From assembly GCA_016194975.1 (NCBI GenBank), contig JACQAM010000016.1, forward strand, positions 62,001 to 126,000: a stretch of 64,000 nt of DNA, given 5' to 3'. Below the pieces are notes generated by a model. It was not told the origin of the DNA. It made no database searches and worked only from the letters and a program-made list of their open reading frames with translations. A program made the translations under genes and the position numbers. The stretch is from Bacteroidota bacterium (GTDB lineage Bacteria; Bacteroidota; Bacteroidia; Palsa-965). Positions 16,190 through 31,127 of the stretch are shown here, piece by piece (positions within the stretch are counted from its first letter, which is position 1; each line of letters starts with the position of its first letter).

Positions 16190-17356
16190 ATGATCGACCG
16201 CCACGCCATACTGCAGCTGGAGAAACTGGGGAAGCATTTTCCTGTGCTCGCCATTACCGGCCCAAGGCAGATCGGGAAAACTACACTCGCAAAACAATAT
16301 TCCCGCAACCTGAAAAAGCAATTCATCTATCTCGACCTGGAATCATCGAGAGATTTTGAGCGGCTTTCCGTGGCGCCCCAGCTTTTCCTGGAAGAACTGG
16401 CGGACAAACTCGTCATTATTGACGAAGTACAAAGATTGAAAAATATTTTTCCTTTGCTCCGGCATTTGGTAGATGTGAAAAGAAAACCACAACGATTTCT
16501 GCTGCTTGGTTCCGCCTCTCCTGATATGATCCGCGACAGTTCTGAAACACTTGCCGGAAGAATAGCATTTCTTGAACTCGGCGGCCTAAGTATAAAAGAA
16601 GCAGGAGAAAAAATAAAACGATTATGGTTCCGCGGAGGATTTCCGATTCCGTTTCTTACCGGTGATAATGAAATACGCAGAACGTGGTTTGAAAATTTTC
16701 TTTTCACGTACGTGCAGCGCGATCTTCCTGCGCTCGGTTCGCCCGCCTCTCCATTGGTCATGCAACGACTGATTCAAATGCTCGCGCACCTGAACGGGCA
16801 ACTGCTTAACCTGAGTACGATCAGCCGCGCACTCGGGCTGAGTGTGAATACGGTGAAGACCTATCTGGATTTTCTCGAGCATGGATATCTCGTGCGACGA
16901 ATTCAGCCCTGGCATTCCAACTTCGGAAAGCGCATTGTAAAAACGCCGAAAATTTATATCCGGGATTCCGGATTGCTGCATCATTTGCTCAATGTAAATT
17001 CAGAAGGCGATGTATTTTCTCATCCCGCGGTAGGATTCTCATTCGAATCATTTGCCGTCGAGCAGATCGCAAACGCAACAGGAAAGAGAGCGGAACTTTT
17101 TTTCTACAAAGAACATGTAGGCGGAGAAGTGGACCTGGTCATTGCGCGCGGAATTCATATTCTTGCGTCGGTTGAATTTAAATTATCATCCGGAGCTTCA
17201 TTGACAAAGCAGGGAAATAAAACCTTCCAGGCGATCAGGGCAAAAAAACAATTCATTGTAACCTTCGACCGGAACTCGGGCTACAACGCCGGAAAAATAA
17301 AAATCTGTTCGCTTGATGATTTCGTAAATAGGGAATTGCCGGCGCTTCTGAAATAG
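16190..17356 (+). CDS. AAA-type ATPase with DUF4143 C-terminal domain
   Basis: 388 residues from the ATG at 16190. The Walker A motif GPRQIGKT is at about 24-31, Walker B LVIIDEVQ at about 74-81, and a GSAS sensor-like segment follows near 110. The C-terminal half carries a winged-helix-like block (STISRALGLSVNTVKTYLDF, LEHGYLVRRIQPW) and a restriction-nuclease-like GGEVDLVI core, the DUF4143 arrangement common in Bacteroidota. Function of this family is not established. An in-frame ATG nine codons upstream lies in the palindrome and would read through the promoter box, so it is rejected. Paired palindromes sit directly before and 33 nt after the gene; see findings. Confidence 0.9.
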   Translation: MIDRHAILQLEKLGKHFPVLAITGPRQIGKTTLAKQYSRNLKKQFIYLDLESSRDFERLSVAPQLFLEELADKLVIIDEVQRLKNIFPLLRHLVDVKRKPQRFLLLGSASPDMIRDSSETLAGRIAFLELGGLSIKEAGEKIKRLWFRGGFPIPFLTGDNEIRRTWFENFLFTYVQRDLPALGSPASPLVMQRLIQMLAHLNGQLLNLSTISRALGLSVNTVKTYLDFLEHGYLVRRIQPWHSNFGKRIVKTPKIYIRDSGLLHHLLNVNSEGDVFSHPAVGFSFESFAVEQIANATGKRAELFFYKEHVGGEVDLVIARGIHILASVEFKLSSGASLTKQGNKTFQAIRAKKQFIVTFDRNSGYNAGKIKICSLDDFVNRELPALLK

Positions 17357-17388
17357 TATTTTTACCCTTGCGCGAAGTTCAGATAAAA

Positions 17389-17423
17389 TGTGAAAATTTG
17401 CAATTCATTTGCAAGATTTCACA
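17389..17423. repeat. Downstream copy of the 35-nt palindrome
   Basis: TGTGAAAATTTGCAA, TTCAT, TTGCAAGATTTCACA. The arms match those at 16143-16177 with left and right variants exchanged, so the two sites together form an inverted pair around the ATPase gene. It starts 33 nt after the stop codon. Confidence 0.9.
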
Positions 17424-17432
17424 GAGCATGGA

Positions 17433-17538
17433 ATACGAAAAGTTTACTAAAAGTTATGAAAGCCCAACCCGCAGGATTGCTTCACTTTGTTCGCAATGAC
17501 CATCGCGCATTTCGTAACTTTTAGTAAACTTTTCGTAT
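17433..17538. repeat. Inverted-repeat element after atpG with GATTGCTTC-type core
   Basis: Arms 17433-17461 and 17510-17538 are 29-nt complements with one mismatch (ATACGAAAAGTTTACTAAAA type). The 48-nt spacer contains a GATTGCTTC...GCAATGACC core. The element separates the plus-strand ATPase gene from the convergent atp operon end and may terminate both. Confidence 0.9.
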
Positions 17539-17547
17539 TTCGCAGCC

Positions 17548-18423
17548 CTATCCCGCCAGCGCTTCCGCCCCACCCACAATTTCCAGAATCTCATTGGTAA
17601 TCGAAGCCTGCCTCGCTTTGTTGTAGGAAATTTTCAAAGCTTTCAGAAGATCTTGCGCGTTGTCGGTCGCCTTGTGCATAGCGGTCATGCGCGCGCCGTG
17701 TTCGGAGGCGAATGAATCGAGAATCGCTTTGTACAATTGTGTTTTCAGCGAACGCGGAATAAGATCAAGTACGATCTCTGAACGATTGGGTTCGAAAATA
17801 TAATCGGTTTTATTTCCTTTTGCTCCTTTCGGCGGAACAACCGGCAGGAACTGTTCGCATTGCGTGAGTTGCACAGCCGCATTCTTGAACTGGTTGTACA
17901 CGAGTACAACCCGGTCGAAATCTCCGGATGCGAATGCTTTCATGATCGCTTCGGCAACGGGAGCCGTTTTGGCAAAGGACACGCCGTCGAACAATGCATT
18001 CGGATTTTCAATATTGCCCAGTGCTGCTGTGTAATTTGTTTTTTTGAAAACATCATTCCCTTTTTTCCCGATGCAGAGGTAATGAATTTTTGCACCGGCA
18101 TATTCCTCGCGAATAGCGCGCATTGTTCTTTTCGACACACTTGAATTGAATCCGCCGCACAACCCGCGGTTGGAAGTGATGACCACGAAGAGCACATTTT
18201 TCACTTCACGCGTTTTTGCATAAGCGCCGCCTTCACTGCTGTCGAGACTTCCGCTGAGATTAGAAAGTATCTCACTCATCTTGTTCGCATACGGGCGCAT
18301 CTGGATGATCGCGTCCTGGGCGCGGCGCAGTTTCGCAGCCGACACCATCTTCATAGCAGAAGTGATCTGCTGTGTGGAGGACACCGAGGTGATGCGATTG
18401 CGGACTTCTTTTAAGCTTGCCAT
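17548..18423 (-). CDS. atpG: ATP synthase F1 subunit gamma
   Basis: 291 residues. The gamma subunit is the central rotor shaft of the F1 sector and couples c-ring rotation to catalysis. The long N-terminal helix is recognisable (EVRNRITSVSSTQQITSAMK, MVSAAKLRRAQD), as are the middle alpha/beta domain (VITSNRGLCGGFNSS) and the C-terminal helix ending with ITNEILEIVGGAEAL. It is the last gene of the minus-strand atp series, 68 nt after atpA. An inverted-repeat element follows the stop codon. Confidence 0.97.
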   Translation of the reverse strand: MASLKEVRNRITSVSSTQQITSAMKMVSAAKLRRAQDAIIQMRPYANKMSEILSNLSGSLDSSEGGAYAKTREVKNVLFVVITSNRGLCGGFNSSVSKRTMRAIREEYAGAKIHYLCIGKKGNDVFKKTNYTAALGNIENPNALFDGVSFAKTAPVAEAIMKAFASGDFDRVVLVYNQFKNAAVQLTQCEQFLPVVPPKGAKGNKTDYIFEPNRSEIVLDLIPRSLKTQLYKAILDSFASEHGARMTAMHKATDNAQDLLKALKISYNKARQASITNEILEIVGGAEALAG

Positions 18424-18491
18424 TTCTGAAAAATTTCAAAAAACAAAAAACAAATCACAAATGCGAAAATGTTATTTTGATTCTTGTTATT

Positions 18492-20072
18492 TTATTTTTT
18501 GTACTTCGCGGAAATTTCTTTAGCTGCTGCATCTAATGCTGCGGTGATCTTGTCATCGAATTTTCCTGCTTTGAGGTCATTCATTACATCGGCATGTGTT
18601 GCTTTCATGTACGCGAGAAAATCAACTTCAAATTCCTTCACTTTATTCACCGGCACATTGCGCAGCAATCCTTTTGTTCCGCAGTAAATGATCGCGATCT
18701 GTTCTTCCACGCGGAACGGAGAGAATTGCCCCTGCTTGAGAATTTCCACGTTGCGCGATCCTTTGTCGAGAACGCCTTTTGTAGCCGCATCAAGATCGGA
18801 GCCGAATTTTGCAAATGCTTCCAGTTCGCGGTACTGTGCCTGGTCGAGCTTCAATGTTCCCGCAACTTTTTTCATGGACTTGATCTGCGCATTTCCTCCC
18901 ACACGTGAAACTGAAATTCCTACGTTGATTGCAGGACGCACACCGGCGTTGAAAAGATTGGATTCAAGAAATATCTGTCCGTCGGTAATGGAGATCACAT
19001 TCGTAGGAATGTAAGCAGAAACGTCTCCTGCCTGTGTTTCAATGATGGGAAGTGCAGTGAGTGATCCGCCGCCTTTTACCATGGAGCGAATCGACTCAGG
19101 AAGATCATTCATATTCTTCGCCACATCATCATTGCCATTCACTTTTGCTGCGCGCTCGAGCAAACGTGAGTGCAGATAAAAAACATCACCGGGATAAGCT
19201 TCACGCCCCGGAGGACGACGAAGAAGGAGGGAAACTTCACGATACGCTACAGCTTGTTTTGAAAGATCATCATAGATGATCAGTGCAGGACGGCCGGTGT
19301 CGCGGAAAAATTCTCCAATGGCAGCGCCCGACATCGGTGCGTAGAATTGCAACGGTGCAGGATCGGCGGCAGGAGCAGCAACAACAACTGTGTAAGGCAT
19401 AGCACCGTTTTCTTCAAGCACACGAACAATATTTGCAACGGTAGAACCTTTTTGCCCGATGGCAACATAAATACAGAAAACAGGTTTTCCTGCTTCGTAA
19501 AATTCTTTTTGATTGATGATCGTGTCAATGCACACTGCAGTTTTTCCGGTTTGGCGATCGCCGATCACCAACTCACGTTGTCCGCGTCCAATGGGAATCA
19601 TTGCATCAATCGCTTTTATTCCTGTTTGCAGGGGCTCATTCACCGGCTGACGGAAAATTACACCGGGCGCTTTTCTTTCGATCGGCATTTCATACGTCTG
19701 TCCTTTGATCGGGCCTTTTCCATCAATGGGATTTCCAAGTGTATCCACTACACGTCCAAGCATTCCTTCGCCCACATTGATCGAAGCAATTTTTCCGGTG
19801 CGCTTTACAGTATCACCTTCTTTGATATCGGTTGAATTTCCGAGCAACACGGCACCAACATTATCTTCTTCGAGATTGAGTGCAATTCCTCTCAACCCAT
19901 TTTCAAATTCGATCAGCTCGCCTGAACCTACATTCGAAAGGCCGTAGATGCGCGCAATGCCATCACCCACTTGAAGAACAGTTCCTACTTCTTCGAGTTC
20001 TTTCGCCGATTTGAATCCTGCGAGTTGCTGCCTGAGGATCGCGGAAACTTCCGCTGGTTTTACTTCTGCCAT
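18492..20072 (-). CDS. atpA: ATP synthase F1 subunit alpha
   Basis: 526 residues, slightly longer than many homologs. It is the nucleotide-binding, non-catalytic subunit of the F1 hexamer. The P-loop GDRQTGKT is clear near residue 171, followed by [17 protein letters not shown], the family signature near 272-288, and [20 protein letters not shown]. The N-terminal beta-barrel ([17 protein letters not shown]) and C-terminal helical bundle are complete. It lies between atpH (78 nt upstream) and atpG. No atpD or atpC follows, as is common in Bacteroidota, where these form a separate locus. Confidence 0.98.
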
Positions 20073-20150
20073 TTTATTTTATTATTGAAAGTTCTGTACT
20101 TTATTTTATGTTCTGACTTACCGGGGTTGACCCTTATTGGATTCGTAGAA

Positions 20151-20705
20151 TTAATTCGGTCTTACGTATGGATTTTCATTGAAGGATCTTTCCAGTTCTT
20201 TTATCTGGCGGATGATACTTGCATCGACTTGTTTGTCGCCGACACGAAGCACAAATCCGCCAATGAGATTTTTATTTACTTTTTCCACCAGTTGAATTTC
20301 TGTTTGCGAAGTTTCTTTTACGATCTCCATCACTTTTTCGCGGAGGCGTTCGTCGAGGCCAGAAGCGGTGGTGATCACTGCGGTGAGAATATTTTTATGT
20401 TTTTTGTATTGGGCAATGAAAGATTCCGCAACACTTTCCAGTTCTGCTTCGCGGCGTTTTCTCGTTACGATGTCAATGAAAGAAGAAGTGATCACGCCGA
20501 TCTTACCACCGAATATCGCTTTGAGAATTTCCTGTTTCTTGTCTGTTTTGATAACGGGGCTGTGCATTAAAACAGAAAGTTCATGGCTTTGATGAATAGT
20601 AGAATGCACCAGTTGCATGTCTTCATACACTTGTTCCAACTGACCTTTGTCGAGTGAAAGATCGAGTAATGATTTTGCGTAACGTTGAGAAACTCTTGTT
20701 TCCAT
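20151..20705 (-). CDS. atpH: ATP synthase F1 subunit delta (OSCP)
   Basis: 184 residues. The delta subunit joins the peripheral stalk to the top of F1. The N-terminal helical domain starts VSQRYAKSLLDLSLDKGQLE, and the C-terminal part has VITTASGLDERLREKVMEIV and LIGGFVLRVGDKQVDASI, the delta signature region. Length and position between atpF (8 nt upstream) and atpA are normal. The start ATG at 20705 is the only good choice. Confidence 0.95.
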   Translation of the reverse strand: METRVSQRYAKSLLDLSLDKGQLEQVYEDMQLVHSTIHQSHELSVLMHSPVIKTDKKQEILKAIFGGKIGVITSSFIDIVTRKRREAELESVAESFIAQYKKHKNILTAVITTASGLDERLREKVMEIVKETSQTEIQLVEKVNKNLIGGFVLRVGDKQVDASIIRQIKELERSFNENPYVRPN

Positions 20706-20713
20706 CGGAGAGA

Positions 20714-21208
20714 TCAGTTGAGCTTAACGTCTTTGAGCAGATTTTTGATCAGCTCTTTTTGTTTGGTATCATCTGCGAGTTCACTTTTGAGAATTTTTTC
20801 AGCAATGTCAATGGAAAGTTGCGCCACCTGGTTTTTCAATTCGGTGATGGCCGCCATTTTTTCATTCTGAATGGTTTCGCGTGCCGAGGCGAGCATTTTA
20901 TCTCCTTCTTCTTTCGCTTTATTTTTTGCTTCGCCCACGATGCTGTCTTTCATTTCTCGTGCTTCTTTCATCATGTGATCGCGTTCCGCACGTGCCTGAG
21001 CGAGGATCTGTTCGTTCTCCGATTTCAGATTTGCCATTTCTGCTTTTGCATTCTCTGCCGACTTCAAGGCATTGTCAATGGAATCTTCCCGCTCTTTAAT
21101 GGATTTCAGGATCGGTTTCCACGCATATTTTTTCAGCAGAACAAGAACGATCATGAACGTGATGAGCATCCATATCGCTAAACCGGTATCGGGCATTACT
21201 AATCCCAT
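20714..21208 (-). CDS. atpF: ATP synthase F0 subunit b
   Basis: 164 residues. One N-terminal membrane helix (TGLAIWMLITFMIVLVLLKK, about 8-27) is followed by a long charged helix (KSIKEREDSIDNALKSAENA onward) that forms the peripheral stalk, typical of subunit b. It sits between atpE (91 nt upstream, across a strong hairpin) and atpH. Only one b-type gene is present, so a homodimeric stalk is expected. Confidence 0.95.
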   Translation of the reverse strand: MGLVMPDTGLAIWMLITFMIVLVLLKKYAWKPILKSIKEREDSIDNALKSAENAKAEMANLKSENEQILAQARAERDHMMKEAREMKDSIVGEAKNKAKEEGDKMLASARETIQNEKMAAITELKNQVAQLSIDIAEKILKSELADDTKQKELIKNLLKDVKLN

Positions 21209-21246
21209 GGCGAATTATTTTTTGTTTTATTTTTTTCTTTTTTAAA

Positions 21247-21281
21247 ACCGCTCTCTTCTGCCAACCGCAAAAGAGAGCGGT
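21247..21281 (-). promoter_or_regulatory. Intercistronic hairpin between atpE and atpF
   Basis: Perfect 11-bp stem (21247-21257 with 21271-21281, ACCGCTCTCTT type) with a 13-nt loop. Read on the minus strand it follows atpE and is trailed by TTTAAAAAAG, a weak T-run. It could attenuate transcription into atpF or protect the atpE message, which would match the need for many c subunits per complex. Confidence 0.6.
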
Positions 21282-21299
21282 GAATTTTTTCCCGCGATC

Positions 21300-21587
<288 letters not shown>

Positions 21588-22763
21588 TTACGTGGTTACT
21601 GTTGCGTGTTCTTGTTGTGCATGTTCTTCTTCGTGATGATGTTCTTCCACTGCTGAGCCGAAATACATTGCAGCGAGCAAAGTGAAAACATACGCTTGTA
21701 AAAACGCAACAAGCAATTCGAGGAACATCATGAACACACAAAAAGCGATAGAGACAACCGCCACGCCAAATCCGGCGCCGAGCGATTCTCCGCCTTTTGC
21801 GAAAATGAAAATGAGCGAGTAGAATGAAAGTGCGATGATGTGGCCGGCAGTAATGTTTGCAAACAATCGGATCATCAATACGAATGGTTTGAGAAAGATG
21901 CCGAGAATTTCAATGGGAGTGAGAATGACAAGAACACCAATGGGAACGCCGGGCATTGCAAAAACGTGGCGCCAGTAAGTGGATTTTGCAGAAAAAGTGG
22001 TGATCATGAAAACAATGACCGCAAGCACCATCGTGATCGCAATGTTGCCGGTGAAATTTGCTCCTCCCGGAAAAACAGGGATGAGCCCGAGCATATTTGC
22101 AAGCCAGATAAAAAAGAAAACGGTAATCAAAAATGGAAGATAGCGCTCGTATTTTTTTCCGATGCTCGTTTTGGCAATATCGTCGCGGATGAAAATGATG
22201 AATGGTTCAACGAGCGATTGCATTCCGCGAGGGCCTTTGCCGGGATTGTTTTTGTATTTACGCGCAACGCCGGTGAAAATGAGCATCAGCAGGAGCACCA
22301 CGACCAGCAATGTCACTACGTTTTTGGTAATGGAAATATCGAAAACTGTTTTCGAAGCATTCTCATTTTCCATCATCGCCAATGGATCCCACACTTTTAT
22401 TTTTCCGTCTTTGAGAATGTACGTGTAATACCTGCCTTTGTATGGCTGTAGTTCATTTGTTTCGGAATTCCTGAAATTTCCGGAAGAGAAAAATTCCCAC
22501 CCCTTGTCTGTTTTAATGATCACGGGAAGAGGAATGAAAATCTTCCCGTAAATGTGCCATTCATGCGCATCACCAATATGCTCCATGATCATTTCACTCG
22601 GTTTGAAACCGCCTTCATCTGCCGCAACATCGTTCGTGGTTTTTTGTGCGCGAACCGTGTCGGCGGCAGCTACTGCATCAGGATCGAACGCATAGGAAAA
22701 TGCAGGAAAAAAAAGGGCACTGGCTGAAAAAATGATCCGGGCAATTCGGGCAGACAAACGCAT
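21588..22763 (-). CDS. atpB: ATP synthase F0 subunit a
   Basis: 391 residues, longer than the enterobacterial protein because of an N-terminal extension of about 130 residues. It starts with a signal-like segment (ARIIFSASALFFPAFSYA) and continues with a periplasmic stretch, a Bacteroidota trait. The channel part has the conserved arginine helix LMIRLFANITAGHII and the final helices LELLVAFLQAYVFTLLAAM. The C-terminus is His/Glu rich (EEHHHEEEHAQQEH). Subunit a provides the proton half-channels beside the c-ring. A -7-like box lies 50 nt upstream, so this may be the first gene of the atpBEFHAG transcript. Confidence 0.96.
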   Translation of the reverse strand: MRLSARIARIIFSASALFFPAFSYAFDPDAVAAADTVRAQKTTNDVAADEGGFKPSEMIMEHIGDAHEWHIYGKIFIPLPVIIKTDKGWEFFSSGNFRNSETNELQPYKGRYYTYILKDGKIKVWDPLAMMENENASKTVFDISITKNVVTLLVVVLLLMLIFTGVARKYKNNPGKGPRGMQSLVEPFIIFIRDDIAKTSIGKKYERYLPFLITVFFFIWLANMLGLIPVFPGGANFTGNIAITMVLAVIVFMITTFSAKSTYWRHVFAMPGVPIGVLVILTPIEILGIFLKPFVLMIRLFANITAGHIIALSFYSLIFIFAKGGESLGAGFGVAVVSIAFCVFMMFLELLVAFLQAYVFTLLAAMYFGSAVEEHHHEEEHAQQEHATVTT

Positions 22764-22813
22764 TGATTCGCAGAATTATTTCAAAGGAGAATTTTCACTT
22801 TCAAAATTCGGCG

Positions 22814-22821
22814 CAAAAATA
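22814..22821 (-). promoter_or_regulatory. Putative atpB -7 box
   Basis: On the minus strand TATTTTTG matches TAnnTTTG and ends 50 nt before the atpB ATG. No TTG lies at the right distance upstream, so only the -7 part is supported. Confidence 0.35.
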
Positions 22822-22947
22822 GGTATTTGTTCCATTAATGATCATGATTCCTGTCAATTATTTTGAGGGAAGAAATGAACTTGTTTTTCACTACTTATCA
22901 GCAATGAAAATCAGGATTGTTCCGAAACGAAGTTCAGTGACGACGGA

Positions 22948-23607
22948 TCACTTTCCGAAGCCGATGAAAAAGGAACTATTCACGCCGCTCATGTCAAGCG
23001 CCGGGAAAACATCGGAAGTAGATCCGCTTTTTTTCCAGGCAGAATTGAAGAATCCATCGTACTGGTAACCGGCCCTTGCACCAATGTAAAAATGATCGCC
23101 GAGGCGCACATGCAACTGCAAGCGCAATACCGGATCGAAATAAGGATCGAGGAAAGTGGAAACATTTCCCTTTTGATTTTCGGTCACTTTAAATCGCCCG
23201 AAGCACCACGCGATTCCACCGGTGAACACCGCATTGTCTGATTTCAGAAAATTGAATCCCACAATGTCAAGCAGAACATGATAGCCGTTCAATTTAAAAC
23301 TTACACTGTCGTTGGAAATGGTTTGTGGCAATAAATACTGGAAAGAAAGCAAAGTCACAGCAGCGTGATTCAGTTTTTCACTCTTTGCCGTAGCGCCGCG
23401 ATCAATTCCAATTCCCAGCGGATTCGAAAATCCTCCGAGTTTGTAGGTGCCCGACGGTACAGAATTCAGTGTGGCAAGATTCGGTAAATAAATTCCGGTA
23501 CTGATCGCCGTGTAGCTATGCGTATCGGACAATTGCGCAAAAGATATTTTGCAGGAGAATACCATCACGATCATCGCGATGAACAGGGAGAATTTTTTAG
23601 ATTTCAT
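22948..23607 (-). CDS. Exported protein of a local four-member paralog family (copy A)
   Basis: 219 residues, signal peptide about 1-24 (ends CKISFAQ). The mature part is beta-rich with alternating hydrophobic residues and ends in aromatic/Gly residues (SSFFIGFGK), like a small outer-membrane barrel. It shares family landmarks with the copies at 24333, 25118 and 25797: NDSVSFKLNGYHVLLDIVGF in the middle and LGDHFYIGARAGYQYD near the end. It is the most divergent of the four. A TAGGTTTG -7 box 19 nt upstream suggests its own promoter. Function is unknown; it sits directly upstream of atpB. Confidence 0.8.
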   Translation of the reverse strand: MKSKKFSLFIAMIVMVFSCKISFAQLSDTHSYTAISTGIYLPNLATLNSVPSGTYKLGGFSNPLGIGIDRGATAKSEKLNHAAVTLLSFQYLLPQTISNDSVSFKLNGYHVLLDIVGFNFLKSDNAVFTGGIAWCFGRFKVTENQKGNVSTFLDPYFDPVLRLQLHVRLGDHFYIGARAGYQYDGFFNSAWKKSGSTSDVFPALDMSGVNSSFFIGFGK

Positions 23608-23626
23608 AAGAATTGGAGTTGTTGAA

Positions 23627-23634
23627 CAAACCTA
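23627..23634 (-). promoter_or_regulatory. Putative -7 box of paralog A
   Basis: TAGGTTTG on the minus strand fits TAnnTTTG exactly, 19 nt before the ATG. The -33 region is AT-rich with no clear TTG. Confidence 0.35.
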
Positions 23635-23723
23635 AAAAATAAAATTGATTTAATGAATAGAGTTTATTCCGAATAAGATACTAAATGCGAAACAGGAAAT
23701 TTTTTGGCATTCAAATGAATCAG

Positions 23724-23757
23724 ACTGAGCATCGGGAATGCCTTGCAAATGCTCAGT
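23724..23757. other. Hairpin in the gap between the AtpI-like gene and paralog A
   Basis: ACTGAGCA (23724-23731) pairs perfectly with TGCTCAGT (23750-23757). A T-rich tract follows only on the plus strand, where no gene precedes it. On the minus strand it lies between the stop of the small membrane protein at 23822 and the promoter of paralog A, so it could separate two transcripts. Confidence 0.4.
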
Positions 23758-23821
23758 TTTTAATAATGGAGCGCTTGCAATCATTTTTATACAACTCTTA
23801 ATCGATATAAACTCTAATGGA

Positions 23822-24199
23822 TCAGTTTTTTTTCCGGAGTTGTTTGTAAAAAGTGATGACTTCAAAAACAGTGAAAAGAATGTACAGTACAAGAAAATGA
23901 AAAAGGAACAAAACAGCTTTATCACGACGTGTAAAAGTGAAAATAAGAATAGCAATGAGAAACAGCATCAGCCGCAGCGTAGTTGCACCCATGAAGCGCC
24001 GAACAAAAACGCCCGGTTTACCTTTTTCACCCGCGCTGATGTATAGGTGGGCGAACACGTACACAAGCGTGAGGAAAATAAGCAAAGCCCAGCTCATCCA
24101 TCCGGCATCATATCGCGGAAAAAATTTATTCCACGAAAAAAGTGCAACAGAAAGAACAACAAGAAAAATAAAATAACGGAGCAAGTGTTTCATCGGCAC
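23822..24199 (-). CDS. Small AtpI-like membrane protein
   Basis: 125 residues with four hydrophobic helices (about 8-24, 36-56, 70-90, 94-115) separated by short basic loops, and a basic C-terminus. In many Bacteroidota a short membrane protein of this size lies between atpZ and atpB; that position and topology match the AtpI role of helping c-ring assembly or ion uptake, but no diagnostic motif allows a firm call. Here the usual neighbours are pushed apart by the paralog genes. Codon 3 is also an ATG. The gene is probably cotranscribed with neither paralog, given the hairpin downstream and repeat upstream. Confidence 0.65.
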   Translation of the reverse strand: MPMKHLLRYFIFLVVLSVALFSWNKFFPRYDAGWMSWALLIFLTLVYVFAHLYISAGEKGKPGVFVRRFMGATTLRLMLFLIAILIFTFTRRDKAVLFLFHFLVLYILFTVFEVITFYKQLRKKN

Positions 24200-24210
24200 G
24201 AAGGTATTTA

Positions 24211-24317
24211 CGATTTACAATTTATGATTTACAATTTTGGAGTTCTTCCGAAGAGATTGTTTCCGGCAGATAACGTGGTGTCAAATAGTCGTTCTCAAAA
24301 ACGGTAAATTGTAAATC
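24211..24317. repeat. Inverted repeat GATTTACAATTT upstream of the AtpI-like gene
   Basis: GATTTACAATTT at 24215-24226, repeated directly once more just after, pairs with AAATTGTAAATC at 24306-24317. A related word (TTTACGATTTACGATTTACG) occurs near 35482. The arms bracket most of the gap between the small membrane gene and paralog B. Confidence 0.65.
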
Positions 24318-24332
24318 TTACATCGCACATTC

Positions 24333-25028
24333 TCACTGGTAATGCACATGTCCCCAGCCGACGAAGAATTCAATACTGGTTCCGGTATTTTTCACTCCCG
24401 GCAATGCAAACGCAGGACCCGATTTCAGGTTCCAGGAATCTTTTGTCACGTCATAGCGGTAACATCCGCGTGCGCCAAGGCAAATAGGACCAAACACGAA
24501 ACGCATTTCCGCACGACCCAGTGGCGCAATGAAAAAATTCCGCTGCAACGTTCCATTTCCATTCACAGCGCTTATCATTTTTAATGTTCCCCAATCTATT
24601 CCCGGCGCAAGAACGAGCGCAACAATACTTCCGGGAATAATATCCTTCCCAAAAAAACTCGACATGAAATTCCATCCTTTCAGATCGAAGGTGAGCGAAT
24701 CTTTCTGCACTTTACCAATGGAAACTTTCGAAGGCATCATCAGGTCGAATGCAAATGAACCATCAAATTCTCCTCCACGCGTCAAATCACAAGGCCCTGC
24801 ATAGGTTAAACCATAACCACGAAGCCCCGAATAAAAAAGATCCTGGTCATTTCCTTTCCATGCGGTAAGCTGATTATTCATCGCGCGCAGATCGGGATGA
24901 AACTGTCCGCCGGAAGGAGCGACAGCCCATTGTTCCGAGATCCAGTGAAAATTATTGCCGTCTTTCTTTTTCTGGGAGAACAAAAAAGCAGGCGCAAGAA
25001 TGAACAGGAATAAAAATATTTTTTTCAT
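24333..25028 (-). CDS. Exported protein of the local paralog family (copy B)
   Basis: 231 residues, signal peptide about 1-19 (ends LFSQ). The family core is clear: KDSLTFDLKGWNFMSSFFGK, then VALVLAPGIDWGTLKM, then RNFFIAPLGRAEMRFVFGPI and ARGCYRYDVTKDSW, with a C-terminal FFVGWGHV. The same series occurs in the copies at 25118 and 25797 and, more weakly, at 22948. Beta-rich and probably outer-membrane or periplasmic. A TATCTTTA box 27 nt upstream suggests a separate promoter. Function is unknown. Confidence 0.8.
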   Translation of the reverse strand: MKKIFLFLFILAPAFLFSQKKKDGNNFHWISEQWAVAPSGGQFHPDLRAMNNQLTAWKGNDQDLFYSGLRGYGLTYAGPCDLTRGGEFDGSFAFDLMMPSKVSIGKVQKDSLTFDLKGWNFMSSFFGKDIIPGSIVALVLAPGIDWGTLKMISAVNGNGTLQRNFFIAPLGRAEMRFVFGPICLGARGCYRYDVTKDSWNLKSGPAFALPGVKNTGTSIEFFVGWGHVHYQ

Positions 25029-25055
25029 AAGCGGAGGTATAAAAATATTTCATGC

Positions 25056-25063
25056 TAAAGATA
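25056..25063 (-). promoter_or_regulatory. Putative -7-like box of paralog B
   Basis: TATCTTTA on the minus strand, differing from TAnnTTTG only in the last base, 27 nt before the ATG. The identical octamer precedes paralog D, and also uvrC and the OsmC gene, so it may be a common variant in this genome. Confidence 0.3.
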
Positions 25064-25117
25064 GCTTCTAAAATGAATTACGAAAAAAACGTCGGAAGAG
25101 TTTTCTCCCTTCGTAAT

Positions 25118-25786
25118 TCAAACTGTTTTTCCCCATCCGAGAAAAACCTGGAATCCAAAACCTGAAATGCGGGTGTGCGACAGAGCAATGTCATCTCTCC
25201 AGCGCGGACTCGTTATGTCGTAACGATACACGGCGCGTATGCCGAATGCAATGGGATGGAAAACAATTCTGAATTCCGTTCGCGCAAGAGGGGCAACGAA
25301 AGGATTAGAAGAATTGAAATTTCTTCCGTTGATGGTTTGTGTGAATTTAATTATGCCCCAGTCAACACCGGGAGCAAGTTCGAGAGCGAGATGAGCATTG
25401 CCGGGCAGAAAATCGTGAGCGTACCAGCTTGTAATAATATGCAATCCTCCAAGTTTGAACTGGAGCGAATCATTCTGTGTTATTTTTTGCGGGATAAAAA
25501 TTTCTGCGCCTAAGGATCCTTTCCATTCACCGCTGCGCCCGCCCACAGGCACAACCATGTTTGCGCCCGCGCCGTAAAGAAAAGGGGCGAATGATTTATT
25601 GCCGGAACGAAGTACGTAGGTGTTGAGCGAATTGAAATTCTGCGGATAATATCCGGCCGAAGCCATAATACACCTCTGGTCAGCCGTTCCATCCTGCAGC
25701 CATCCTTTTTTTGAATGCAGATTTTTTTTTCCTTCAGCATGAAATGAAAAACAAAGAAGGATCAGGCAAAGAAAAAAGTGTTTCAT
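25118..25786 (-). CDS. Exported protein of the local paralog family (copy C)
   Basis: 222 residues from the ATG at 25786, which places a proper signal peptide (MKHFFLCLILLCFSFHAEG) at the N-terminus. An in-frame ATG 11 codons upstream lies inside copy D and is less likely. Family core: NDSLQFKLGGLHIITSWYAH, LALELAPGVDWGIIKF, NPFVAPLARTEFRIVFHPI, AVYRYDITSPRWRDD, and C-terminal FQVFLGWGKTV. Its start follows the stop of copy D by 10 nt, so C and D form a two-gene transcription unit. It is closest in sequence to copy B. Function is unknown. Confidence 0.8.
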   Translation of the reverse strand: MKHFFLCLILLCFSFHAEGKKNLHSKKGWLQDGTADQRCIMASAGYYPQNFNSLNTYVLRSGNKSFAPFLYGAGANMVVPVGGRSGEWKGSLGAEIFIPQKITQNDSLQFKLGGLHIITSWYAHDFLPGNAHLALELAPGVDWGIIKFTQTINGRNFNSSNPFVAPLARTEFRIVFHPIAFGIRAVYRYDITSPRWRDDIALSHTRISGFGFQVFLGWGKTV

Positions 25787-25796
25787 TTTTTTTAAA

Positions 25797-26561
25797 TCAG
25801 TTGAAAGAAATTCCGACATAAGCCTGATAATACAATCCGCGATTCAGATAACCGGGAAGAATTTCAAGATTAGGAGATCTGCGTTTCCATTTAGGATCGG
25901 TCACATCATACGCGTACACCGCGCGTCCTCCAATGGAAATACTGCCGAGATTGAAACGAAGTTCGAGCCGCAGACCCGGCGCCACAAAAGGTTCTTTGTA
26001 TTTTTCTTTTCCTGTTGACGGAGTATTTTTTATCAGGTGATAACTTCCCCAGGTGATCTGCGGGCCGATAATTAGATCTACGTATTCGGTGCCGAGCAGA
26101 TCGAACCCGATAATACTGGTCATCATTTGCCATCCGTGAATTTTAAATCGAAGCGAATCGTTCGTTCCTGCTGATCCGTATTGCGGAAAAATATAATTTA
26201 CGCTGACCGCTGCAGTAAGCGGATCGTCGACCACGAGATCTTCATAGCCGATCATTTTATAATAATTCCGCAATATTTCTTTTTGTCCGAATTGTGCAAG
26301 ATAATTATTCAGTGGAGCAGGATTGAAAGCGGAGTAACCGAATGACAAGCCGCGGGTGGAAACCGCATCATCAGAATAAGAATAGCTTTTCATCGCGCAT
26401 AATTCTTTGAATGCGCCGCTGTAATAATTCATCAAATGTCCCTGATAAAAATGAGAAGTGCGTGAATGAACATTTTCTTTCGTGCACCGCGGATGAAACG
26501 GCCCGGCGGAAAGGGAATTCGCAGTAATGCAAATGAGGCACAGCGAAAAAATATTTTTCAT
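25797..26561 (-). CDS. Exported protein of the local paralog family (copy D)
   Basis: 254 residues, the longest of the four, with a signal peptide about 1-19 (ends NSLSAG) and an extra N-terminal region containing HPRCTKENVHSRTSHFYQGH. Family core: NDSLRFKIHGWQMMTSIIGF, DLIIGPQITWGSYHLI, EPFVAPGLRLELRFNLGSIS, RAVYAYDVTDPKWKRR, and a C-terminal YYQAYVGISFN that ends like an outer-membrane barrel strand. First gene of the D-C pair, 99 nt downstream of atpZ, with a -7-like box of its own. Confidence 0.8.
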   Translation of the reverse strand: MKNIFSLCLICITANSLSAGPFHPRCTKENVHSRTSHFYQGHLMNYYSGAFKELCAMKSYSYSDDAVSTRGLSFGYSAFNPAPLNNYLAQFGQKEILRNYYKMIGYEDLVVDDPLTAAVSVNYIFPQYGSAGTNDSLRFKIHGWQMMTSIIGFDLLGTEYVDLIIGPQITWGSYHLIKNTPSTGKEKYKEPFVAPGLRLELRFNLGSISIGGRAVYAYDVTDPKWKRRSPNLEILPGYLNRGLYYQAYVGISFN

Positions 26562-26584
26562 AAATTAATAATCGGGGTGAAGTA

Positions 26585-26592
26585 TAAAGATA
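26585..26592 (-). promoter_or_regulatory. Putative -7-like box of paralogs D and C
   Basis: TATCTTTA on the minus strand, 23 nt before the ATG of copy D. Identical to the octamer before copy B. Confidence 0.3.
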
Positions 26593-26660
26593 AGGTGAAC
26601 AACAACATTTAGATCAGGTCAAATAAGATCAGCCAGGAAAAAAATTCGCAAAACGAAAGA

Positions 26661-26888
26661 TCACTTCTTCACAAAATCGCGGATGAAATACCACATCGCA
26701 GCGAAAACGGAGAACAGGGAAAGTGTAAGTGTGAAGAGTGGGAATTTTACAACCGGGTGATGATTATCGAGCCAGCGGCCGGCCAATGTACCCAGCGTGA
26801 TGACAGCAGCCATGAAGCTGGTCATCGAAATATATTTCGCTGTGTTATTAAGCGGTTTTTTCGGCGAGCTCTGCTTCGGAGTTGTCAT
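26661..26888 (-). CDS. atpZ: AtpZ/AtpI family ATP synthase accessory protein
   Basis: 75 residues with two hydrophobic helices (about 20-40 and 47-68), a glycine-rich first helix (MAAVITLGTLAGRWLD) and a Pro/Lys-rich N-terminus. This is the size and pattern of AtpZ/AtpI proteins that sit at the head of bacterial atp operons and are linked to magnesium or c-ring assembly functions. It overlaps the 3' end of the bactofilin gene by 41 nt. In compact Bacteroidota loci it is followed closely by atpB; here more than 3.8 kb of other genes intervene. Confidence 0.82.
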   Translation of the reverse strand: MTTPKQSSPKKPLNNTAKYISMTSFMAAVITLGTLAGRWLDNHHPVVKFPLFTLTLSLFSVFAAMWYFIRDFVKK

Positions 26889-27270
26889 GCTGCAGGATCT
26901 CTTTCACTACGCCGCCCATGCTGCACGATCCGGAGAAATCAGCGCCGGGCTCAATAGCAAGTTTACCGGTAGAAATTTCTCCGTTCAGTTTTGCAGTTGA
27001 TTTGAGCGCGAGAAGATCAGACACATTCACTTTGCCGCGGATGTTTCCGGAGATGTCCGCATTCTGGCAATTCACTTCGCCTTCCACGCTTCCGGAAGGC
27101 CCGATCACCAGTTTGCCTCTTGTTTTCACAGTGCCTTTCAGCGTTCCGTCAATACGGATATCGCCGGTAGAAATTATATCACCATCAATGGAAGTTCCGG
27201 CGCCAATGATATTGACCGATCCGGAATCGGGAGAATTCGAGCGCATTGGCCCTGAGTTTTTGTTGAACAT
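26848..27270 (-). CDS. Bactofilin
   Basis: 140 residues. Central repeats of a right-handed beta-helix (about 20-115) are visible as regularly spaced G-D-I-x-x-x-G steps (DGDIISTGDIRIDGTLKG, KLVIGPSGSVEGEV, ADISGNIRGKVNVSD), framed by unstructured tails, as in polymer-forming bactofilins. These cytoskeletal proteins assemble into filaments at the membrane and organise cell-wall enzymes or shape. It precedes and overlaps atpZ, an arrangement often seen in Bacteroidota. An M23 peptidase, a common bactofilin partner, lies at 30258 on the other strand. Confidence 0.9.
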   Translation of the reverse strand: MFNKNSGPMRSNSPDSGSVNIIGAGTSIDGDIISTGDIRIDGTLKGTVKTRGKLVIGPSGSVEGEVNCQNADISGNIRGKVNVSDLLALKSTAKLNGEISTGKLAIEPGADFSGSCSMGGVVKEILQHDNSEAELAEKTA

Positions 27271-27381
27271 GTTGGTCGCGTTTCGGTAAAGCTAAGCAAT
27301 ATAGGTTTTCACTCCGGGGGCTTCGTTGATAAAAAACGTAAAATGTTAATTGCGGATTGCCAGTGAAAAATCAAGGACAGA

Positions 27382-30042
27382 TCACTTGCCGGTAAGAATA
27401 TTCTTCTCGAAAAAAGCTTTGTAGGTATCGATGTTCTTGTCTTTAAAAAATACGGGGAAATTTTCAGAAGAGATCGCCATCACCTGGAACGTTCCGGGCT
27501 GCAGCATTGCGAATAATTCGGGATGGATCTTCAGCACGCCATAGTAATCCATCACCGACTTTTTCCCGCTGAATTTTTTTACGAGAATGCACTGGTGTTT
27601 ATCGTCGAGCATCATGCTGGAAACAACGAGTCCTTCCGAAGTATAATTCACGCCATCGAAATCCGTGATCGCGATCTTCGTTTTATTCACATCACCTTTT
27701 CCATTTTCCACAATGATCATGAACTGGTAATCTCCATTGTCATTGATCTTGTAACCATTTCCATTCACCACGCTCGCCGTATCGGTAAGTACCACATCGG
27801 TTGAACCGCTATTCTGTTTGTGAATAGCATCAATGAGCGCCTGCACCTGCGGACGAATAGGGTCTTTCGGATAATTAGCCACGATCTTTGTGAGTGCAGT
27901 TTCCATTTGCGGAATGCCCTGCGTTTTTCCAATGCTCACAGCGCGCAGGTACGCAAATTTCGCCGCCATTTCATTCTTGTCTGTTTTTGTTCCGTAAACA
28001 GAATCGGCATAATTGCAACGAGCTATGACTTGCTGATAATCCCTGCGCAGGTAAATCGAATACGTGCTGTCGTAATAAGCGGAAATATCTTTTTTCGCGC
28101 CAAGCACATCTACTTCGTGGTCCGGATTTTTTATGAGCTCACAATATTCACTCGACGGGAAATTGTTGCAGATATAATCGCTGTGTTCTTTTGCTTTTGC
28201 GGTGTTGTTCACGGTCTGGTCCGAATAGATCCGGTAGAGCTGAAAATGCGAAGGAAGATTGTATTTGTGTTTCGGGAATCGTTTGCATAATTCTTCAAAA
28301 GCATCTTCAGATCGCGGATAATTTTTCATTTGCTCTTTGTAAATAGTTCCGAGATTGAAAAGAGCATCTGCGATTCTTTCATTGGACGCGGCCACCAGCG
28401 AATCATTCAGCGGAAGATCTTTGATGTAATAAGCGCGCGAATATTTATCGTTGACCGTTTTTTTCCCGCCCCCCTTTGTATTGGAAGAATCAGCATTCTG
28501 ATTATCGGAACTTTCTTCTTCCACAATGGATTCCTTGTTCGATCTTCGCCAGTTGTCTTCCAGTTTCCGGTTTCCCCATTTGCGCGTGAATTCATTCACA
28601 CCGAAAGAAATGTTCGAAGGGTTATAGAAATAAAATGAACTCGGTTGTGTGTTGGTGCTGCTCTGCCCCGCAGTGAAACCCGTTCCTCCCGCGGCGGCCA
28701 ATGCATCCTGCTGCTCCTTCTTTTTCTTGTCTTCCGCTTTCTGTTTTGCAATGAGTTTATCAATGAACGGATACAATTTGAGTGTGTCATCTCCATATTT
28801 GCGCGCAACCATCTGTGTGCTGTCTTCGAAAGCAACAAGATTGATGTAATGCACCAGGTTGTTCAGCGATTTTCTTTTTTCGTCAATAGATTTGTAATCG
28901 GGATAATCTTTCGGAAGGAACTGCATAGTGCTGTCGTAATACGCCTGTGCATTGATGTAATCAGTCCGCCCGAAATAAATATCACCGAGCGCGAGGTAAG
29001 AAAGTGATTTCTGTTTGTTATTACCCACGCTTGAAGCAACAGAAAGTTTGTAGTAACTCACGGCGCCCGCTTCATTCTTCGATCCCATTTCTAATTGCGC
29101 AAGCGTGTAATAGATCTGGTCCTGAAATTCCGTGTTCTTCGAATCGGAAAGCATTTTCTGCAATTCTTTCTTCGACTCATTTCTTGTTTTCGGATCAGAT
29201 GCACTCAGCCGTGCGCGCGAAAGTTTTGCATTGAAAAGCATATCGTACCTCGGGTGCATGCCGATCACTTTGTCGTACATGTCGAATGCTTCTTTTTGCT
29301 TTCCTGTTTTTTCATACAACTGCGCAAGCACGTACATGTAACGCACGCGGGGTTTTTTACTCTTTGTGATCTTGATCGCCTCTTCGAGATTTTTTATCGC
29401 TGCATTGTAATTCCCCTTCTGGATGTAGAGATAAGCATAGGTGGCTTTGATGTCGGGCAAAAGACGTTCGGGGCAACCCTTGTCATTGGCAATCACATCG
29501 AGCATCCCTTCTGCTTCGGTGAGGCCGCTCATTTCAATTTCTGTTCTCGCTTTCCACATGATCGCGTCATAACGGATCGGGAATTTGGAATATTTCTGAA
29601 TGAGATAATCGAAGATCTCAATAGCGGAAATGTATTCTCCCTTGTAATAACGCGCCCGGCCGATGATCAGGTAATTGTCATCGATCCATTTTACTGCACC
29701 GGGAATCTCGTCGCCGCCCTTGGTGGTGATCGCGTGATGTTCAATAACGCTGCTCGATTTCTTGATCGCTTTTTCCAATGGAGCATAGCATCCTTTCGTC
29801 TCCGGTGTATTGGGCAAACGATAAACCGGAAGTATCTGCGAATAATCGTCGATGTATGATTTGTCGAGCTGATCGAGCGCATCTTTCATGTTTTCCTTCG
29901 CGTAGAAATATCCATTGTACCGCGAGGTCATGTTGTGATACGCACGGTGCATGAATTTATTCTTCGTGGTGGAACAGGCCCCGAGCAGGAACAGCACGAA
30001 TCCGATGACGGGAAAAAGAGAATATGAGAGGCGAAACTTCAC
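27382..30042 (-). CDS. SprE/PorW-like TPR lipoprotein of the type IX secretion system
   Basis: 886 residues from a GTG at 30042. The signal peptide ends in a lipobox (FLLGAC, Cys about 23), followed by STTKNKFMHRAYHNMTSRYN, the typical start of SprE/PorW, with an N-terminal block around LDQLDKSYIDDYSQILPVYR. Many tetratricopeptide repeats follow (about 130-400 and 550-700), separated by a low-complexity K/Q/S-rich linker. SprE/PorW links the PorL/GldL motor complex to the outer-membrane parts of T9SS. An open frame extends to a TTG at 30081, but that codon lies in a -7 box, so the internal GTG is preferred. It diverges from the M23 peptidase gene. Confidence 0.85.
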   Translation of the reverse strand: MKFRLSYSLFPVIGFVLFLLGACSTTKNKFMHRAYHNMTSRYNGYFYAKENMKDALDQLDKSYIDDYSQILPVYRLPNTPETKGCYAPLEKAIKKSSSVIEHHAITTKGGDEIPGAVKWIDDNYLIIGRARYYKGEYISAIEIFDYLIQKYSKFPIRYDAIMWKARTEIEMSGLTEAEGMLDVIANDKGCPERLLPDIKATYAYLYIQKGNYNAAIKNLEEAIKITKSKKPRVRYMYVLAQLYEKTGKQKEAFDMYDKVIGMHPRYDMLFNAKLSRARLSASDPKTRNESKKELQKMLSDSKNTEFQDQIYYTLAQLEMGSKNEAGAVSYYKLSVASSVGNNKQKSLSYLALGDIYFGRTDYINAQAYYDSTMQFLPKDYPDYKSIDEKRKSLNNLVHYINLVAFEDSTQMVARKYGDDTLKLYPFIDKLIAKQKAEDKKKKEQQDALAAAGGTGFTAGQSSTNTQPSSFYFYNPSNISFGVNEFTRKWGNRKLEDNWRRSNKESIVEEESSDNQNADSSNTKGGGKKTVNDKYSRAYYIKDLPLNDSLVAASNERIADALFNLGTIYKEQMKNYPRSEDAFEELCKRFPKHKYNLPSHFQLYRIYSDQTVNNTAKAKEHSDYICNNFPSSEYCELIKNPDHEVDVLGAKKDISAYYDSTYSIYLRRDYQQVIARCNYADSVYGTKTDKNEMAAKFAYLRAVSIGKTQGIPQMETALTKIVANYPKDPIRPQVQALIDAIHKQNSGSTDVVLTDTASVVNGNGYKINDNGDYQFMIIVENGKGDVNKTKIAITDFDGVNYTSEGLVVSSMMLDDKHQCILVKKFSGKKSVMDYYGVLKIHPELFAMLQPGTFQVMAISSENFPVFFKDKNIDTYKAFFEKNILTGK

Positions 30043-30078
30043 AGAATAAAAATCCGGCAAAATGCAACGCCGGAAGCG

Positions 30079-30086
30079 CAAAAATA
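30079..30086 (-). promoter_or_regulatory. Putative -7 box of the SprE/PorW-like gene
   Basis: TATTTTTG on the minus strand fits TAnnTTTG. A start site some 7 nt downstream leaves a short leader before the GTG at 30042 and rules out the upstream TTG as a start. Confidence 0.4.
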
Positions 30087-30257
30087 GTGTATTACTTCTA
30101 CAAAGACGGATAAATTACCAATGGTTGCTTCTGCTCAGTTGCCGGGTTTCAGTTCTCAGTCACCAGTATAGAAGTGTTTCCAAATACTGACAACTGCCGC
30201 TGACAACTGCTACTGACCACTGTGCTCTCTTTTCCCGATATTTGACGTTCCCAGAAA

Positions 30258-31127
30258 ATGACCGAACACAAAGCGAAAAATAAACTCATTCACCGTTTGC
30301 GGAACCGGTATCGCCTCGTAGTAATGAACGACGATACTTTCGAAGAACGTTTTTCCTGGCGACAAACTCCGCTCGGGTTTCTCATTGCTATTATTTCGCT
30401 TACGATCTTCATGATCGCGCTCGTGGTCGTGCTCATTGCGTTCACGCCCATACGCGAGTACATTCCCGGGTACGCCGACGAAACGTCGCAGCAGAAATTA
30501 CTCGATCTTCATTTCAAAACCGACTCGATCGAAAAAATTCTTACTGATCAGCAGAAATACACAGATAATATTCTCACGATCCTGAAAGGAAAAGATTCGG
30601 CAGAGCATCCGGTGAATCCGCGCGACACGACAAAAAAATATACGAATCTCAATTTCAAACCTTCGAAGGAAGACACCGCGCTGCGCAATGATGTGGAAAG
30701 CATGGATCAGTATTCACTCACTGCGAATTTCGATCGAAAAGGCGGGATCGGCGACTTTTTCTTTTTCGTTCCGCTCCAGGGAACAGTCACGAATATTTTC
30801 AATGCAGCAGAAGAACATTTCGGTGTGGACATTGCTGCTACTGATGATAACGAGCCCGTTCGCAGCACGCTCGACGGAACTGTTATCTCTGCCGGATGGA
30901 CGATCGATAATGGTTACGTGATAGAAATTCAGCATGCGAATAATATTATTTCTATTTACAAACACAATGCAGCGCTGCTCAAAAAAACCGGCGATTATGT
31001 GAAAGCGGGAGATCCCATTGCTATTGTTGGAAGTTCGGGCGAACAAATGATCGGGCCACATCTTCATTTTGAATTGTGGTACAATGGAACGCCGGTCGAT
31101 CCGCAGGATTATATTTTAATTCAATGA
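30258..31127 (+). CDS. M23 family metallopeptidase (LytM-type)
   Basis: 289 residues. A cytoplasmic basic N-terminus is followed by one membrane helix (about 37-62) and a periplasmic coiled segment (KLLDLHFKTDSIEKILTDQQ). The C-terminal M23 domain spans about 170-289. Zinc-site residues are all present: EEHFGVD (H and D), YKHNAALL and GPHLHFELW (HxH). An active endopeptidase that cuts peptidoglycan cross-bridges is therefore likely. The stop overlaps the OmpA-like gene start by 4 nt, suggesting the two wall-associated proteins are made together. It diverges from the SprE/PorW-like gene. Confidence 0.92.
   Translation: MTEHKAKNKLIHRLRNRYRLVVMNDDTFEERFSWRQTPLGFLIAIISLTIFMIALVVVLIAFTPIREYIPGYADETSQQKLLDLHFKTDSIEKILTDQQKYTDNILTILKGKDSAEHPVNPRDTTKKYTNLNFKPSKEDTALRNDVESMDQYSLTANFDRKGGIGDFFFFVPLQGTVTNIFNAAEEHFGVDIAATDDNEPVRSTLDGTVISAGWTIDNGYVIEIQHANNIISIYKHNAALLKKTGDYVKAGDPIAIVGSSGEQMIGPHLHFELWYNGTPVDPQDYILIQ

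Follow-up and report, generated by a model that had tools for sequence, protein, structure and literature searches.

The closest described counterparts of the proteins considered here are the OmpA transmembrane domain and the small outer-membrane proteins OmpX-Ail, NspA and OmpW, which are alike in their signal peptide, eight strands and size, while sequence identity is just about 8-14%. The outer loops of OmpA and OmpX are usually the variable part. Counterparts are also found within the Bacteroidia, where erythromycin-esterase-like proteins of about 600-650 aa carry a C-terminal domain homologous to our proteins by profile and BLAST searches; unlike our proteins, these have an enzyme-like domain fused to them and are not linked to atp genes. 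Bacteroidetes atp genes are usually split into transcription units (PMC5709465), and the -7 box of Bacteroidota sigma-A promoters has the consensus TAnnTTTG (PMC9723704). Here we describe four genes, A to D, located between atpZ and atpB in a Bacteroidota genome (G000; assembly of 4.1 Mb, 99.8% complete). The whole stretch of DNA analysed, 64,000 nt of this assembly, is referred to as the window. Our set represents the GTDB order of G000 by a single family, with 12 genomes from three genera. Among the papers searched, we found no report of barrel genes in an atpZ-to-atpB arrangement.

Gene order and paralogy between atpZ and atpB

Inspection of the open reading frames identified A-D as four intact frames, all on the minus strand. 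The order on this strand is TPR protein, bactofilin, atpZ, D, C, B, the AtpI-position gene, A, atpB, atpE, atpF, atpH, atpA and atpG. Coordinates are presented in Table 1. The mechanical reading frame of gene C starts at 25819, inside D, and the Met used in Table 1 is the likelier start. A gap of 10 nt separates C from D, and the two are therefore probably co-transcribed.

Table 1. Features at the atpZ-atpB junction (positions in the window).
Feature	Position	Strand	Description
atpB	21588-22763	(-)	PF00119 at residues 151-368, 1e-54; border of the junction on the downstream side
atpB promoter -7 box TATTTTTG	22814-22821	(-)	58 nt before the atpB start; downstream of A-D
gene A	22948-23607	(-)	219 aa; signal peptide and predicted 8-stranded outer-membrane barrel; of the four, closest to atpB
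AtpI-position gene	23822-24199	(-)	conserved 125-aa multi-TM ORF, between A and B
gene B	24333-25028	(-)	231 aa; A-D family, sister of C
gene C	25118-25786	(-)	222 aa; A-D family
gene D	25797-26561	(-)	254 aa; A-D family; groups with atp-linked copies of G005 and G011
atpZ	26661-26888	(-)	PF09527 ATPase_gene1, 7e-11; border of the junction on the upstream side

A sequence-only reading of this DNA had suggested that the four genes take the place normally held by an AtpI-like gene. This proved incorrect, since the AtpI-position gene, missed in that reading, is still present; nothing has been replaced, and A-D are additions on both sides of it. The AtpI-position gene is multi-TM by its hydropathy segments, has no curated Pfam match; relatives and other Bacteroidia encode homologs of it in the same place. 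In AtpB, the ATP-synt_A domain is preceded by about 150 residues that begin with a signal-like stretch, and this N-terminal extension is found also in loci without barrels. An Rfam scan of positions 17000-31000 gave no match.

With gene C as query against its own genome, B (2e-31), D (2e-14) and A (4e-7) were retrieved and nothing else matched, making A-D the sole four copies of the family in G000. Four motifs align in order across the proteins, beginning with NDSVSFKLNG / KDSLTFDLKG / NDSLQFKLGG / NDSLRFKIHG and continuing with APGxDWG (degenerate in A and D), PFVAPxxRxExRF (degenerate in A) and RAxYxYDVT. The C-terminal strand is aromatic/Gly, and signal-peptide-like N-termini are recognizable by eye in all four sequences. 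The own-genome search, the motif alignment and the N-termini bear out the claim of four tandem paralogs with signal peptides and ordered motifs, and on their sequences A-D are true paralogs.

In the tree, a weakly supported branch (62/77) separates the atp-linked copies from the rest, and they may form a single clade. Gene A groups with the G006 copy and both G003 copies (100/100), D with those of G005 and G011, and the B-C branch is strong (100/99). Since A and D each group with copies of other genomes, the A type is older than the species, as are the B/C/D types, and the separation between them precedes the split of the sampled species. The latest duplications, B/C and those within G003, look recent. 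Duplication in place, as proposed earlier, therefore fits B/C and the G003 copies, but not the older separation of A from B/C/D.

Predicted fold and family of the A-D proteins

AlphaFold2 models of A and B were built from shallow alignments of five sequences. Gene A is modelled as an eight-stranded barrel (pLDDT 76.3, pTM 0.73) with strands at residues 29-43, 64-74, 83-99, 102-119, 126-145, 148-169, 173-182 and 205-218. The model of B is also an eight-stranded barrel, with a pLDDT of only 62.8 and a pTM of 0.60. In Foldseek searches against the PDB, OmpA and Ail rank first for both models, and OmpX, NspA and OmpW are near the top (for B, OmpA at 5.6e-7, also Ail, OmpX, NspA and OmpW); the target-normalised TM-score against outer-membrane barrels is about 0.46-0.69. 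The combination of eight-strand barrel and signal peptide that characterizes outer-membrane barrels is thus predicted for A and B with moderate confidence, and both models are alike in fold to solved outer-membrane barrels. The small-barrel fold anticipated by the sequence-only reading is consistent with these models and their matches, at the same moderate confidence.

Scans of A-D against Pfam, NCBIfam and PHROGs gave nothing usable, and no significant hit came from a sequence-profile search of the PDB. The closest relative of gene A, the atp-linked copy of G006 (45% identity), aligns to PF13505 OMP_b-brl over residues 37-224 (1.8e-5) with 25.4 bits, just below the cutoff of 28.7 bits. None of the other 21 family members tested matches PF13505, and A-D have no match. 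The inside/outside alternation of hydrophobic residues is weak along the strands of gene A.

Conservation peaks toward the loop end of the barrel, with LN..L in L1, D-S in L2, NP..AP and R-x-E in strand 6 and YD..T...W in L4, and is lowest in two of the turns at the opposite end. This distribution is unlike that of OmpA and OmpX; A-D also differ from OmpA in having no peptidoglycan domain. With a periplasmic N-terminus, such as OmpA has, the loop end would face outward. Since the most conserved residues cluster there, it seems plausible that the proteins share a ligand- or partner-binding mouth. PagP-like catalysis by the Asp-Ser in the loop was considered and rejected, as one G005 copy lacks the Asp-Ser and Thr often replaces the Ser. 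A-D are best read as predicted small outer-membrane barrels of an unnamed family, for which we infer the outer-membrane location, the orientation of the barrel and the binding role.

Distribution of the barrel genes and the promoter box of atpB

A profile of A-D found relatives in 9 of the 12 genomes of the GTDB family, among them all seven good ones (7/7). The atpZ-to-atpB junction is readable in eight family genomes, and six of these, G000 included, carry 1-4 barrel genes there. Intact copies number two each in G003 and G005 and one each in G006, G011 and G002. The G006 copy lies between the AtpI-position gene and atpB, while the very diverged G002 copy (E 0.001) directly precedes the AtpI-position gene. 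G008 and G009 have no insert and show a compact TPR-bactofilin-atpZ-AtpI-atpB junction, so the copy number at the locus ranges from 0 to 4 among relatives. Although deeply diverged, the 11 atp-linked copies have all kept open, uninterrupted frames, suggesting that the barrel genes themselves are under selection. The linkage is real, old and lineage-specific, and older than the split of two genera.

Other genes, envelope-type ones among them, are also present at these junctions. In G002 (L065:6176-9386), a glucose/sorbosone dehydrogenase-like protein and a SprB-repeat protein are encoded, both type-IX-sorted, and in G011 (L024:7778-9878) an ankyrin protein and a type-IX-sorted protein. A run of sugar- or polysaccharide-type genes, judged from their sequences, lies ahead of the AtpI-position gene in G007. 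The atpZ-to-atpB interval at L084:1867-6785 holds a further insert of 4.9 kb.

Outside the family the picture is different. We surveyed 30 atp loci fetched by AtpB similarity, of which two belong to family members and some have short flanks; none of the 28 loci from outside the family carries a barrel family member, and 9 of the 28 show the compact bactofilin-atpZ-AtpI-atpB order. A class-wide profile search, in which the best nine or fewer candidates were scored per large genome and weak homologs may be missed, found a homolog in at least 30 of 296 sampled genomes. The flanks of about 1.5 kb retrieved around homologs outside the family contain no atp genes. The conserved atpZ/atpB neighbourhood that the sequence-only reading foresaw in other species thus holds inside one GTDB family, but the phylum-wide linkage to atp genes expected of an accessory gene was not found.

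The contexts of the non-atp homologs are mixed, pointing to no single function. In some, the barrel domain is fused to an erythromycin-esterase-like domain, the barrel being at the C-terminus (L038:205-2103; L039; L040; L046-L051; L053); PF05139 is recognized in the N-terminal part of the L038 protein (6e-11). At L029:159-8441, a family member lies after genes resembling a pilus/type-II-secretion set, with a pseudopilin, a weak prepilin peptidase, a secretin (PF00263 at 1.7e-36) and a weak PilO, and homologs of the two genes just ahead of this barrel also lie ahead of a barrel gene in L044:1408-3362.

TAnnTTTG was found before atpB in all six family genomes with barrels at the locus (6/6), at -45 to -61, and every barrel gene lies upstream of this box. 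Among 21 atpB loci from named records, two of which are on the same contigs as family members, the box occurs in 19 at -28 to -61, against 1.1 expected from shuffles; as a control, it occurs in 3 of 18 atpE upstream regions. Most atpB loci share a CaccCGAA-like stretch after the box. The promoter core TAnnTTTGCacccGAA is strikingly conserved across several Bacteroidota lineages (Table 1; upstream regions of L070-L097).

We infer from this conservation that atpB has its own promoter, which would separate the barrels from the main atp transcript. The position of the box between the barrels and atpB argues against A-D and atpB sharing one transcript, although transcription of the barrel genes may read through into atpB. 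The embedding of A-D in the ATP synthase locus is thus correct as to gene order, but the operon would begin downstream of all four. An own -7-like box had also been claimed for each of B, D and A. The exact box is found before A only (-27), with TATCTTTA before B and D; among the atp-linked members, it occurs in 1 of 11, against 0.63 expected. Sigma-70-type promoters and terminators were at chance level. The proposed separation from the atp transcript is therefore supported through the promoter box of atpB, while motifs lend no support to separate barrel promoters.

Explanations for the barrel genes at the atp locus

We consider it fairly likely that small outer-membrane barrels settled between atpZ and the atpB promoter, have been inherited at that site and function at the outer membrane. 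A-D would be exported eight-stranded barrels and belong to a Bacteroidia barrel family that is otherwise unnamed, in which they constitute a lineage-specific subfamily. In an ancestor of this Bacteroidota family, one or a few barrel genes would have inserted between atpZ and the atpB promoter, and would then have been retained by descent and multiplied to up to four strongly diverged copies. The junction would tolerate inserts because atpBEFHAG has its own promoter directly upstream of atpB, so that genes inserted before it leave the atp operon unbroken. The unrelated secreted-protein genes in G002 and G011 support such a permissive junction. The proteins themselves would most likely act at the outer membrane through the shared binding mouth.

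It is also conceivable that the barrels have been kept at the locus because of a functional tie to the ATP synthase, for instance by way of the N-terminal extension of AtpB, or because their regulation follows energy demand. Such a tie would fit the persistence of the linkage across six genomes from two genera and an AtpB with about 150 residues, signal-like at their start, ahead of ATP-synt_A. We regard it as quite improbable, however, because G008 and G009 lack barrels at the atp locus, the extension occurs also where barrels are absent, homologs elsewhere are without atp linkage, atpB has a promoter box of its own downstream of the barrels and their number at the locus varies from none to four. 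It is extremely doubtful that the tandem barrels serve the ATP synthase locus as a set of outer-membrane partners, for example by coupling through the AtpB extension or by adjusting outer-membrane permeability to the cell's energy state. A selected link could explain why two genera retain the genes at one site, but a role of A-D in ATP synthesis, possible but unsupported, is not expected, and the barrels probably form no part of the ATP synthase but are its neighbours.

Pure hitchhiking, in which the genes are present by accident in a permissive site and their location and number have no adaptive meaning, agrees with the occurrence of other unrelated genes at the same junction and draws on a tolerance of the site that is already part of the settlement explanation. 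It appears unlikely in view of the 11 atp-linked copies, all intact though deeply diverged, and of a linkage older than the split of two genera. As for the proteins, a soluble periplasmic or surface barrel of the lipocalin-like eight-stranded fold, not inserted in the membrane, would be compatible with the weak hydrophobic alternation along the strands of gene A, and lipocalins too have eight up-and-down strands. The top Foldseek matches of both models are outer-membrane barrels and include no lipocalin, the G006 relative comes near the OMP_b-brl threshold and the C-terminal strand is aromatic/Gly, all of which make a soluble barrel very unlikely.

Settlement of outer-membrane barrels at a permissive junction, the explanation that we favour, would define a family of small outer-membrane barrels in the Bacteroidia, as yet unnamed, whose members occur alone, in tandem or fused to an enzyme-like domain. 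It also cautions that position inside an apparent operon is an unsafe guide to function: the stretch from atpZ to atpB can absorb extra genes, since the atp operon would begin at its own conserved promoter just ahead of atpB.
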